A DNA stretch of 33,469 bases from Candidatus Liptonbacteria bacterium. GTDB taxonomy: Bacteria > Patescibacteriota > Minisyncoccia > UBA6257 > JACOXY01. Under the pieces are notes generated by a model. That model worked only from the letters and a program-made list of their open reading frames with translations. It had not been told where the DNA came from and did not search any database. Where the stretch lies: contig JACOXY010000016.1 in NCBI GenBank assembly GCA_016182095.1, positions 1 through 33,469 on the forward strand, in the 5' to 3' direction. The stretch's first letter is position 1. Each line of letters begins with the position of its first letter. A program made the position numbers and the translations under genes. This document shows positions 6,097 through 11,122 of this stretch, piece by piece.

Positions 6097-6354
6097 TTAT
6101 GAAAGATGCTTTGACACCAACTTTGTCATTTCAAACATGTTGACAGTGCTTTTGCCTCCGAAAACTTTTTTAAGATTTTCGTCGGCATTAATATTGCGCT
6201 TATTATTTGGGTCTTGCAGGTTATTTTTCTTAATATACACCCAAAGACCTTTAACAACTTCCGACCTTGGCATTGGACCCTTGCCGACTATGACCGCCAA
6301 CTCGGAGCTGACGTTCATCGGCTTCATAAAAGCCGAATTGGATTTTTTATCCAT
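6097..6354 (-). CDS. SWIB/MDM2 domain protein
   Basis: An 85-residue protein consisting of one SWIB domain: NSAFMKPMNVSSELAVIVGK, MPRSEVVKGLWVYIKKNNLQ, DPNNKRNINADENLKKVFGG. Bacterial SWIB proteins occur in Chlamydiae and widely in CPR; the role is unknown, with chromatin or nucleoid functions suggested by the eukaryotic relatives. Family assignment is secure, function is not. Two TATAAT-like boxes lie upstream (one at 6383-6388). Confidence 0.9.
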   Translation of the reverse strand: MDKKSNSAFMKPMNVSSELAVIVGKGPMPRSEVVKGLWVYIKKNNLQDPNNKRNINADENLKKVFGGKSTVNMFEMTKLVSKHLS

Positions 6355-6534: not shown

Positions 6535-6609
6535 TGGCGGGGGCACTAGGATTTGAACCTAGAAGTCGGGATTTGGAGTCCCGCAGTTTGCCGTTGAGCT
6601 TATACCCCC
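6535..6609 (-). tRNA. trnW: tRNA-Trp (CCA)
   Basis: Acceptor GGGGGTA/TGCCCCC, discriminator G and encoded CCA (6537-6535). Anticodon arm CGGGA-CTCCAAA-TCCCG, anticodon CCA. T-arm CTAGG-TTCAAAT-CCTAG. The D-stem has one mismatch. The stop codon of the upstream gene (6600-7259) lies within its first ten bases. Confidence 0.95.
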
Positions 6610-7263: not shown

Positions 7264-7275
7264 TGTTATATAACA
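7264..7275 (-). promoter_or_regulatory. palindromic promoter of tRNA-edge gene 1
   Basis: Perfect 12-bp palindrome tgttatataaca that covers the -10 box TATATA (7267-7272), seven bases before the ATG. Binding by the gene's own HTH domain would give autorepression; inferred. Confidence 0.55.
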
Positions 7276-7327
7276 ACAATAATCTGTTCAAATATATTCT
7301 GCAAGTCAGTCAGAATTTTCACAATTA

Positions 7328-8728: not shown

Positions 8729-8775
8729 TGGAGCCACCTCCCAGATTTGAACTGGGGACCTTCTCTTTATCCCAT
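8729..8775 (-). pseudogene. tRNA 3' fragment (T-arm, acceptor, CCA)
   Basis: Intact T-arm CCCAG-TTCAAAT-CTGGG, acceptor 3' strand AGGTGGC, discriminator T and encoded CCA (8731-8729). No matching 5' strand GCCACCT exists upstream, where tRNA-Thr(UGU) ends about 20 bases away. The T discriminator and the AGGTCC before the T-arm would suit a tRNA-Thr, but the identity is open. It may be a true 3' half whose partner lies elsewhere. Confidence 0.6.
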
Positions 8776-8794
8776 ACAAAATATGCCTTCTCGG

Positions 8795-8866
8795 AGCCGA
8801 TGGAGGGATTTGAACCCACAACCTACGCATTACAAATGCGTTGCTCTGCCATTGAGCTACATCGGC
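8795..8866 (-). tRNA. trnT: tRNA-Thr (UGU)
   Basis: Acceptor GCCGATG/CATCGGC, D-arm GCTC..GAGC, anticodon arm ACGCA-TTTGTAA-TGCGT with anticodon TGT, T-loop TTCAAAT, discriminator T. CCA is not fully encoded (CCG follows). One T-T mismatch in the T-stem. The upstream tRNA-edge gene 2 stops seven bases before it. Confidence 0.93.
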
Positions 8867-8872
8867 GGAACA

Positions 8873-9487
8873 TCAATGTGTTAACTTTATCCTATATTCT
8901 TCTATCCACGCAAGTATTTGCTTCAATAGCAATTTGTCACAATAACTAATAGCTAATGTCCCATAAATTGATTTATTCTTGTAAGTTCCTCCTTTGCCAC
9001 CGTGTACGAACGATTTATAAAAATTTGTTTTGGGTATTTTTGTAACCTTAGACCAAAATTCTAAAAGTTTCTCTTCATTAAGATCTGGATACATATGAAT
9101 AAGCGCTTTCATCCTTCTTTCAGAAATACCACAAATAGTTCTTAAAAATTTTAGGAAAACTTTTATCATTGCCGGATCGCTGTTCGCGAATTTTACGCTG
9201 TTATTGGTTTTGGAGCCCTCTCCCCAATACAACATTATACCCGCCACTTTAAGCCTTTCGTCGTTCCTGCTCAAGTGATTTTTTAATATAAATTGTTTCT
9301 TCCCAAATTTATTGGTATATAAAATATTAATTGCCTCACTAATGGATCTGCTTTTTATGCCAGCCTTATCCAACCAATATCTAACTCCTGATGGTCCCAT
9401 ACCCAAACGTTTGGCAATTTGATCCATTGAGAGATGTTCCCCAGTATACATCCCCACAATTAAGTCCTGTTTTATTTTATGTGACAT
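8873..9487 (-). CDS. tRNA-edge HTH + YWGEG protein, copy 2
   Basis: A 204-residue relative of the products at 6600-7259 and 10197-10814. N-terminal HTH (LSMDQIAKRLGMGPSGVRYW, about 19-38), then KVAGIMLYWGEGSK (80-93), VKFANSDPAMIKVFLKFLRT, LLEFWSKVTKIPKTNFYKSF and ISYCDKLLLKQILAWIEEY. The domain order and the spacing from HTH to YWGEG match copy 3 residue for residue (YWGEG at 87-91 in both). A single LAGLIDADG-like unit is inferred. The TGA lies six bases before tRNA-Thr(UGU) on the same strand. Start ATG 9487, because TGtTATAAT ends seven bases upstream (leaderless). Probably a mobile gene that now supplies the tRNA promoter. Confidence 0.82.
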   Translation of the reverse strand: MSHKIKQDLIVGMYTGEHLSMDQIAKRLGMGPSGVRYWLDKAGIKSRSISEAINILYTNKFGKKQFILKNHLSRNDERLKVAGIMLYWGEGSKTNNSVKFANSDPAMIKVFLKFLRTICGISERRMKALIHMYPDLNEEKLLEFWSKVTKIPKTNFYKSFVHGGKGGTYKNKSIYGTLAISYCDKLLLKQILAWIEEYRIKLTH

Positions 9488-9494
9488 TGTACTA

Positions 9495-9530
9495 ATTATA
9501 ACAAACCAGTTGTTAGATAACAACTGGTTT
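9495..9530 (-). promoter_or_regulatory. palindrome-overlapped promoter of tRNA-edge gene 2
   Basis: Extended -10 TGtTATAAT (TATAAT at 9495-9500) with TTGTTA at -35 (9523-9518). A perfect inverted repeat, aaaccagttgtta (9503-9515) and taacaactggttt (9518-9530), covers spacer and -35. It is a likely operator. Confidence 0.6.
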
Positions 9531-9540
9531 GAGTTGTGGG

Positions 9541-9670
9541 ATGAGCCAATGGCCGGAAATTGAACAATATTCGCCTATCTAGCGAATATTTTGAAACCCA
9601 TCGGTTTCAATGCTTCCGCCACGGGGAAACTACCGTTTCCCCGACCCCCTTCCCGGTTCAAATCCGGCGC
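9541..9670. repeat. tRNA-Thr 3'-end copy plus three perfect hairpins
   Basis: 9541-9557 repeats the 3' end of tRNA-Thr(GGU) (atgagccaatggccgga, also at 9671-9687). Between the two copies lie hairpins aatattcgc/gcgaatatt (9566-9590), ttgaaacc/ggtttcaa (9591-9610) and cggggaaac/gtttccccg (9622-9643), two with four-base loops, and an inverted T-arm copy ccggttcaaatccggc (9653-9668). No coding signal. Confidence 0.65.
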
Positions 9671-9673
9671 ATG

Positions 9674-9943
9674 AGCCAATGGCCGGATTTGAACCGGCGA
9701 CCTACTCCTTCATTTGCACCTCCTTTTTATTAAACCTATTGAGAAGGATTAGACTGTATCTTTGTCCCTACAGGACACCCTTGTCAGTCGTTCGGGCTAA
9801 AACAGCTTGTGCTGATTCGCCACGGTCTCTGCCTAGTCTGGGCCTTTAACCGTTATTCGGGATTCACCAAAGCGTTGCCACTTTGGTGGGCATGAGTTTT
9901 TCGCTCTACCATGGAGTTGCTCTACCAGCTGAGCTACATTGGC
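9674..9943 (-). tRNA. trnT: tRNA-Thr (GGU) interrupted by a group I intron
   Basis: 5' exon 9943-9908 and 3' exon 9710-9674. The joined exons give acceptor GCCAATG/CATTGGC, D-arm GCTC..GAGC, anticodon arm ACTCC-ATGGTAA-GGAGT with anticodon GGT, T-arm GCCGG-TTCAAAT-CCGGC and discriminator T; CCA is not encoded. The intron lies between positions 36 and 37. The mature length is 73 bases. Confidence 0.9.
9711..9907 (-). ncRNA. group I intron in tRNA-Thr (GGU)
   Basis: 197 bases, no ORF inside. The 5' exon ends in T and the intron ends in G (omega-G at 9711). P1 can form between GGT-AGAG and CTC-A-TGCC with the U-G pair at the splice site. The P7 strands are AGACT (in CAGACTAGGC) and AGTCT (in AAGATACAGTCT); P8 is tgtcc-tgta-ggaca-like. 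These are group I core hallmarks. Confidence 0.8.
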
Positions 9944-10196: not shown

Positions 10197-10814
10197 ATGT
10201 ATGTTATCAAAGATCATCAATTAAAGTTAGTAAAAGAATTGTATTATGATAAATTACTGCCGGCTTATGAAATTGCGAAAATACTTAGGGTGTCCGTTGA
10301 TGCGGTTTATGGTTTTATGAATCGCCATAATCTAAAAAGACGCACATTGGCAGAGAACAATAAAATACAATTTGCAAATAAAAAACCGTCTTTTAAACTT
10401 AAGGGCAATCTAAATGAGTACGAGAAAGAGTTGAAAGCTTCGGGAACGATGTTATATTGGGGTGAGGGCTTTCAATCAGAAAAGGCTATTGGTGTGGATT
10501 TTGCCAATTGTAAACCTGAGATGATAAAATTATTTCTTGAATTTTTAAGAAAAATTTGTGGAATAGATGAATCTAGATTGCGAGTCTATTTATACTGCTA
10601 TGCCAATCAGAACATAAATAATATTATTAACTTCTGGAGCGCTCTAACCAAAATTCCCAAAAGTCAGTTTACTAAGCCATACATAAGAACTGATTTTGAT
10701 ATCAAAAAAATAGATAAGATGAGATATGGCTTGATTCATATTAGATATCATGATAAAAAGTTGTTAAACTTAATACGAGGATGGATAAGTGAATACAGTG
10801 AAAAGTTTAGTTAA
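10197..10814 (+). CDS. tRNA-edge HTH + YWGEG protein, copy 3
   Basis: A 205-residue member of the same family as 6600-7259 and 8873-9487, on the opposite strand. HTH at about 22-46 (LPAYEIAKILRVSVDAVYGF), ASGTMLYWGEGFQ (81-93), VDFANCKPEMIKLFLEFLRK, IINFWSALTKIPKSQFTKPY and HIRYHDKKLLNLIRGWISEY. The Asp of the NSDP motif of the other copies is Lys here (NCKP), a possible loss of an acidic residue. The TAA lies four bases before tRNA-Tyr, which carries a group I intron. Leaderless promoter as in its relatives. Low GC and codon use like the host, so it is not a recent arrival from a GC-rich source. Confidence 0.82.
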   Translation: MYVIKDHQLKLVKELYYDKLLPAYEIAKILRVSVDAVYGFMNRHNLKRRTLAENNKIQFANKKPSFKLKGNLNEYEKELKASGTMLYWGEGFQSEKAIGVDFANCKPEMIKLFLEFLRKICGIDESRLRVYLYCYANQNINNIINFWSALTKIPKSQFTKPYIRTDFDIKKIDKMRYGLIHIRYHDKKLLNLIRGWISEYSEKFS

Positions 10815-10818
10815 AAAC

Positions 10819-11122
10819 GCGCAGGTGGCGGAGCGGCCAATCGCACGAGACTGTGTTAACGCAGCTCTTATAGGAAACTGTAAGATAAACTTTCCGGGAT
10901 AACGGTGAACCCTTCGACAAACTCACAGCAAATGCTCTGGTTAGTAAAGGTAATACCGTGGGAACCCTGCAAAAGCGGGGGCTCCGTAGAGACTAGATAC
11001 CGGAATACCTAAAGCCATTATGGCTATGGTAAAGATATAGTCCACACCTTAAGGAAACTTGGGGGTAAGTGAAATCTCGCGCCCAATGGGCTACGCAGGT
11101 TCGAATCCTGCCCTGCGCACCA
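10819..11122 (+). tRNA. trnY: tRNA-Tyr (GUA) interrupted by a group I intron
   Basis: Exons 10819-10854 and 11072-11122. Acceptor GCGCAGG/CCTGCGC, discriminator A, CCA encoded (11120-11122), anticodon arm CGAGA-CTGTAAA-TCTCG with anticodon GTA, long variable arm GCCC-AAT-GGGC, T-arm GCAGG-TTCGAAT-CCTGC. The class II shape and the anticodon agree. The intron lies between positions 35 and 36. The mature tRNA has 87 bases with CCA. Confidence 0.93.
10855..11071 (+). ncRNA. group I intron in tRNA-Tyr
   Basis: 217 bases, no ORF. The 5' exon ends in T; P1 pairs exon CTGT with internal guide GCAG, U-G at the splice site; the last intron base is G (11071). The P7 strands are GACTA (in AGAGACTAGATA) and TAGTC (in AAGATATAGTCC), with P8 agccattatggct between. 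These are clear group I core signatures. A cccttcgacaaactcac word lies in the 5' part. Confidence 0.88.

Follow-up and report, generated by a model that had tools for sequence, protein, structure and literature searches.

The tRNA-Trp locus

The window considered here is the whole stretch of DNA that was analysed, 33,469 nucleotides in length; it comes from a genome assembled into 23 contigs that total 893 kb. On the minus strand of the window, positions 6535–6609 are occupied by a gene of tRNA-Trp(CCA), which was called at 6609–6535 by ARAGORN and at 6609–6538 (48.5 bits) by the Rfam model RF00005, so that both methods agree on the 5′ end at 6609 given in the earlier note. An open reading frame of 219 codons, HEG1, runs on the same strand from 7259 to 6600 and encodes a protein with a helix-turn-helix (HTH) and a LAGLIDADG-like part. 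Its last codons are AAT AAG GGG GTA TAA, and the TAA at 6602–6600 coincides with nucleotides 8–10 of the tRNA, which confirms the initial observation that the gene stops within tRNA-Trp.

In a covariance search of the genome, the assembly of which was rated 97.5% complete, this was the sole tRNA-Trp found. Its anticodon arm, CGGGA-CTCCAAA-TCCCG (6567–6583, minus strand), has a stem unlike the GGT/ACC stem usual in genomes without an adjoining gene of this kind, and it may represent both the target region of the enzyme and an immune allele. A weak promoter-like sequence, TTGAAC-15-TATAAC (7265–7291, minus strand), which alone is not significant, lies just 5′ of the HEG1 ATG and is a candidate start of a joint HEG1–tRNA-Trp transcript. 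Downstream of tRNA-Trp, a small protein with a SWIB/MDM2 domain (Pfam E 1e-32) is encoded at 6097–6354 of the same strand.

Two more genes of the same family are present in the window. HEG2 (8873–9523, minus strand; its start is probably the ATG at 9487) stops 6 nt short of a tRNA-Thr(TGT) gene (8793–8866, minus strand), and HEG3 (10197–10814, plus strand) ends 4 nt before a tRNA-Ser(TGA) gene (10819–11122, plus strand; locus L003), in the anticodon loop of which an intron was called by ARAGORN run with introns. At 8730–8769 (minus strand), just downstream of the HEG2-linked tRNA, another tRNA-Thr(TGT) is represented by its 3′ half, possibly a remnant of a replaced resident gene. The start region of HEG2 contains a near-perfect 30-nt inverted repeat (9502–9531), which may serve as an operator bound by the HTH of HEG2 itself, and a similar one is found in L007. 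A tRNA-Thr(GGT) gene with a called anticodon-loop intron (9673–9943, minus strand) has no endonuclease of the HEG1 family directly upstream.

The HEG1 protein

HEG1 consists of an HTH (residues 1–44), a helical linker and a single-motif LAGLIDADG-like domain (residues ~89–216). Residues 1–44 match transposase-type helix-turn-helix models, and only HTH models score well: no Pfam LAGLIDADG model is listed for the proteins of the window, and the models displayed for 29 family members include none either. Pfam, NCBIfam and plain Foldseek gave no identification of the C-terminal domain, and plain Foldseek with the HEG1 model returned no significant match. A profile of the 29 relatives matched I-DmoI (E 0.005) over motif II of this enzyme. 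Residues Y103, E106, G107, N119, W162 and G192 are invariant in the family (for Y103, E106 and G107 this was established on the 29 members), and the pair E106-G107 aligns with YVAEGDK of the second I-DmoI motif, the LAGLIDADG helix bearing the catalytic acid.

An AlphaFold2 model of HEG1 was obtained with a pLDDT of 94.8, and its best counterpart in VIA-align was again I-DmoI (Z 6.5 over 82 residues), with an intein endonuclease second (Z 5.9); the predicted fold contains one additional helix. The profile match and the VIA-align result suggest that the C-terminal domain is LAGLIDADG-like, a name chosen because the catalytic motif was found and the fold partly so, with no Pfam LAGLIDADG model listed. 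The assumption of the earlier note that the enzyme is potentially harmful is supported by its prediction as a homing endonuclease of the HTH and LAGLIDADG-like type.

Distribution and placement at tRNA 5′ edges

Relatives of HEG1 were found in 47 of the 101 genomes of the order and in 101 of 379 genomes across the phylum Patescibacteria, with a patchy distribution among host families. By annotation, the named relatives of the Trp clade nearly all belong to Patescibacteria/CPR, and a search of IMG/VR with the Trp-clade alignment found no relatives there. As a rule, these genes are placed at the 5′ edge of a tRNA gene of the same strand: 58 of 68 order-level copies end between −76 and +72 nt from the tRNA 5′ end, and the endonuclease stands at this edge in 28 of 30 fetched loci phylum-wide. 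Flush placement is thus found in about 85–93% of family members, and at most about 6% would be expected by chance, according to a rough count of ~45 tRNAs and ~800 genes per genome.

The exceptions are mostly still located beside tRNAs, as in the Val-TAC and Glu-TTC clades, where the gene is downstream or divergent; a few members are downstream of, divergent from or convergent with a tRNA, and two exceptional copies end at contig ends. Degenerate copies also exist, including the remnant L011/L116. Other nuclease-like open reading frames end inside tRNA 5′ ends too (L113 and L131 at tRNA-Trp, −10, and L043 at tRNA-Leu, −1), so other nuclease families may share this niche; their HNH-like and GIY-YIG-like labels come from motifs recognised by eye only. 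A search of the open-access literature revealed no description of tRNA-edge endonucleases in CPR/Patescibacteria.

Anticodon-specific clades and replacement of tRNA genes

The maximum-likelihood tree of the family follows the anticodon of the linked tRNA: it needs 17 label changes, where 16 is the minimum and shuffled labels give a mean of 44.7. The members linked to Lys-CTT, Trp-CCA, Gly-GCC, Ile-TAT, Gln-TTG and Val-GAC form one group each, and these groups extend across many host families. Two residual mismatches are explained by mis-called intron-containing tRNAs, L063 being Thr and L023 probably Phe. Such sorting by anticodon is the signature expected of site-specific homing.

Three comparisons within single genera (Ile, Ala and Trp) gave the same picture, in which neighbouring tRNAs or flanks are conserved and the endonuclease-linked tRNA is foreign. 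In the Ile case, the carrier G052 was compared with the non-carriers G034 and G012 of one genus; the flanks are 81% and 72% identical, and the adjacent tRNA-Val is essentially identical in the carrier and non-carriers. Here an 895-bp block (L013:1401–2295), comprising the promoter region, the endonuclease, tRNA-Ile(TAT) and a spacer, replaces a 72-bp tRNA-Ile gene. The tRNA-Ile genes of G034 and G012 differ from each other at one position, and the copy of the carrier differs at many. The Ala (G076/G024) and Trp (G079/G003) comparisons likewise show a linked tRNA that has diverged much further than the sequence around it.

The tRNA-Trp genes of carriers are outliers within their own host families, with a mean best identity of 0.71 vs 0.87 (p 0.008). 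Particularly, tRNA-Trp of the window is 94% identical to one from another family and 56% identical to that of its own. The distances between the endonucleases correlate with those between the tRNA-Trp genes (Mantel r 0.35, p 2e-4). Because the linked tRNAs are foreign or outliers and the distances correlate, the endonuclease gene apparently travels with its tRNA, at any rate in the cases compared.

Anticodon stems and introns

The GGT/ACC anticodon stem of tRNA-Trp was found in 0 of 8 carriers and 57 of 77 non-carriers within the order (p 6.5e-5), and a group I intron in the anticodon loop of tRNA-Thr(GGT) in 6 of 7 carriers and 6 of 58 non-carriers (p 7e-5), both p-values being optimistic, as the carriers are related in sequence. 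Across the wider phylum, none of 28 distinct carrier tRNA-Trp sequences has this stem, compared with 55 of 75 from non-carriers. Positions 30:40 and 29:41 of the anticodon stem are the most discriminating in tRNA-Trp. All Phe-group tRNAs called beside an endonuclease contain an intron, and for Gly and Lys a weak trend in the stem was seen by eye in an ascertainment-biased sample.

These associations point to the anticodon region as the probable target, with carriers presumably protected either by recoding of the stem or by an intron. The stem difference could partly reflect lineage rather than immunity, because the carrier tRNAs are foreign overall. The locus L058, in which a Thr-clade endonuclease stands beside an intronless tRNA-Thr with an ordinary anticodon arm, contradicts this, since the enzyme should cut its own locus.

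Introns in most Thr-GGT carriers and in the called Phe-group carriers also agree with another explanation, according to which the endonucleases are former group I intron enzymes, or serve anticodon-loop introns in trans by collaborative homing, their placement beside intronless tRNAs being a relic. We consider this unlikely, as most clades (Trp, Lys, Gly, Ile, Gln, Val and Ala) are located beside intronless tRNAs and no copy among those examined is inside a group I intron; even where the tRNA contains an intron, the endonuclease gene is outside the tRNA and 5′ of it.

A proposed homing cassette with a rescue tRNA

In our opinion, HEG1 is best regarded as a free-standing homing endonuclease directed against one tRNA anticodon region and travelling with an immune replacement tRNA, a reading to which a probability of about 0.7 may be assigned. 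In a genome without the cassette, the enzyme, probably a homodimer, would recognise the matching tRNA gene at its anticodon region and cut it there. Repair from donor DNA would then replace the resident tRNA by the endonuclease gene together with its linked tRNA allele. This allele would be immune owing to a recoded anticodon stem (Trp) or a group I intron in the anticodon loop (Thr-GGT and Phe), and the cassette would rescue the cell that it damaged, because the linked tRNA supplies the essential function. The endonuclease gene, flush with the tRNA 5′ end, is probably co-transcribed with the tRNA from a promoter upstream of the gene, and at the HEG1 locus the tRNA would supply the stop codon as well.

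The stop codon within the tRNA and RNase P

The earlier note proposed that relatives be examined for the same overlap, and it proved recurrent: 31 of 58 order-level members adjoining a same-strand tRNA stop inside it, 21 of them exactly at nucleotides 8–10, and the overlap is met in the Trp, Ile, Val, Thr, Lys, Arg and other anticodon groups. In a comparison set, 6 of 63 open reading frames outside the family that lie near a same-strand tRNA also stop inside it. The sequence U8-A9-G/A10 is nearly universal in tRNAs, and any open reading frame entering in that frame therefore stops at nucleotides 8–10, so that the codon is a built-in trap. Thus, the overlap is explained more simply by a gene family lying flush against tRNA 5′ ends, with nucleotides 8–10 supplying the stop; the remarkable part is the tight placement of the family at these edges, and not the stop codon.

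Joint transcription of the endonuclease and the tRNA, also assumed in the earlier note, is likely, because −10-like hexamers are commoner before endonuclease starts than before linked tRNAs. They were found at 84% of endonuclease start codons (60-nt windows), in 39% of 45-nt stretches before linked tRNAs and in 29% of random intragenic 45-nt stretches, a comparison that is suggestive only, the lengths of the windows being unequal. On a joint transcript RNase P would cut at 6609 and leave a non-stop message at the HEG1 locus; a tmRNA gene was found in the genome.

In one rival explanation, the stop codon is placed in the tRNA as an adaptation, so that maturation of the tRNA destroys the message and limits a harmful enzyme. 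The geometry stood up to examination, and the process is physically possible at the HEG1 locus, with the stop at nucleotides 8–10, an overlap recurring in several anticodon groups, plausible co-transcription and the tmRNA gene all agreeing with it. As a trait of the family it did not hold: 27 of 58 relatives, or nearly half, stop before the RNase P site, so that the overlap is dispensable for function. Moreover, nucleotides 8–10 are the default stop in that frame, and some unrelated genes have the same overlap. There is a parallel in bacteriophage T4: RNase E acts on the segB and segG transcripts, which in the view of reviewers may reduce the amount of endonuclease message (PMC2988022). Taken together, the adaptive brake is improbable, somewhat more so than an intron origin. 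The overlap nevertheless offers a testable case for mRNA decay coupled to tRNA maturation.

A still less probable explanation regards the HEG1 protein as a domesticated HTH-LAGLIDADG regulator, like WhiA, which controls the adjacent tRNA and is not a mobile nuclease. The N-terminal HTH would suit such a role, as would palindromes in the start regions of a few members (for example, L004 and L007), but these are not general, and the idea of a common operator palindrome upstream of the endonuclease gene found no support. Several observations speak against regulation: the E-G of the catalytic motif is invariant, the family is patchily distributed and includes degenerate copies, foreign alleles have taken the place of the linked tRNA, and the genes are associated with anticodon-loop introns. 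That an ordinary gene runs by chance into a downstream tRNA is hardly credible, for although almost every tRNA has a stop at nucleotides 8–10 in one frame and other genes do overlap, the frequency of overlap in the family and its flush placement are far above this background.

Comparison with known systems

Group I intron-encoded endonucleases aimed at the tRNA anticodon region resemble the HEG family in their target and differ in that their gene is inside the intron. The intron around such a gene restores the tRNA by splicing, and the fold of the nuclease is different from that of the HEG family.

The closest system in setting is SegB of phages T4 and T6, a free-standing GIY-YIG homing endonuclease in a phage tRNA cluster, which cuts the tRNA region and drives its inheritance; its transcript is processed, and it was reported to have no preference for particular tRNA isotypes (PMC13096335, PMC2988022). 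In both cases a free-standing homing endonuclease gene stands beside tRNA genes, and the seg genes of T4 exemplify intronless homing. SegB is, however, a phage-borne GIY-YIG enzyme, whereas the HEG family is of the HTH-LAGLIDADG-like type and resides on cellular chromosomes, has anticodon-specific clades, lies flush with the tRNA 5′ end and carries a linked tRNA that replaces the host gene.

I-ShaI and other LAGLIDADG enzymes of CPR rRNA introns are single-motif proteins that spread at conserved sites of RNA genes and form clades following the insertion site (PMC11270868). The HEG family shares with them the single-motif type, the CPR hosts, conserved RNA-gene sites and site-following clades; in contrast to those intron-encoded rRNA enzymes, which match Pfam LAGLIDADG, its members are free-standing, contain an HTH and have no LAGLIDADG Pfam match. 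In collaborative homing, a free-standing endonuclease cuts the insertion site of an intron (PMC3984707). The Thr-GGT and Phe clades, in which the free-standing gene adjoins a gene whose intron contains no ORF, are similar to this system, but most HEG clades lack an intron, and immunity apparently comes from a recoded tRNA stem.

Cleave-and-Rescue and home-and-rescue drives are synthetic, Cas9-based systems of insects, in which a nuclease is linked to a recoded resistant copy of an essential gene (PMC7951863, PMC7968924). The HEG cassettes would likewise link a nuclease to a putatively resistant copy of an essential gene, an analogy drawn from sequence only.

Nested tRNAs and spare tRNA copies

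When all tRNAs were compared with the fetched loci by BLAST, 48 orphan tRNA pieces emerged, mostly 5′ halves ending and 3′ halves beginning at the anticodon. In several loci a broken tRNA contains, within its anticodon loop, a complete tRNA with inverted-repeat arms, the two tRNAs being identical or similar in isotype; such nested arrangements occur in L291 (G000:C18) and L296 (G000:C5), both in the HEG1 genome, and in L124, L254, L105, L058, L251, L259 and L021. Inverted-repeat arms, for example CCCCGTTAGATAT/ATATCTAACGGGG, are shared between isotypes and between genomes, and the same inverted repeat is also present elsewhere without a tRNA. Apart from tRNA itself, the nested insertions gave no convincing match to an RNA family in Rfam.

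The half-tRNA pieces were considered as scars of endonuclease cutting, and this was rejected: they are not evidence for a cut site, because several of them are explained by insertions of spare tRNAs flanked by inverted repeats and an old tRNA 5′ half was found upstream of none of 92 endonuclease cassettes. A possible old 3′ half was seen downstream in a handful of the 92.

A wider and quite tentative proposal is that Patescibacteria harbour natural anticodon-specific home-and-rescue elements displacing essential single-copy tRNA genes, that the inverted-repeat-flanked spare-tRNA insertions are their non-autonomous counterparts, and that tRNA genes of the phylum therefore turn over by selfish replacement and not by descent. 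If so, essential tRNA genes of a huge bacterial phylum would have been repeatedly swapped by selfish cassettes with their own resistant copy, in a natural parallel to the engineered cleave-and-rescue drives. This would explain the odd tRNA sequences and anticodon-loop introns of Patescibacteria and provide a ready set of nucleases with differing tRNA-gene specificities. Such tRNA-specific homing cassettes would be the larger finding at this locus, outside the scope of the earlier note.

A structured noncoding element (GGGGAAAC..GTTTCCCC, AACCGATGGGTTT) was noticed after tRNA 3′ ends at 9543–9675 of the window (minus strand), in L028 and in L061. At its start is a T arm in reverse complement; the elements of the window and of L028 are followed by a duplicate of the tRNA 3′ end. 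In the locus L310 (G000:C10), five tRNA genes are clustered within 3 kb, with further copies of tRNA-Ile(TAT) and tRNA-Thr(TGT).
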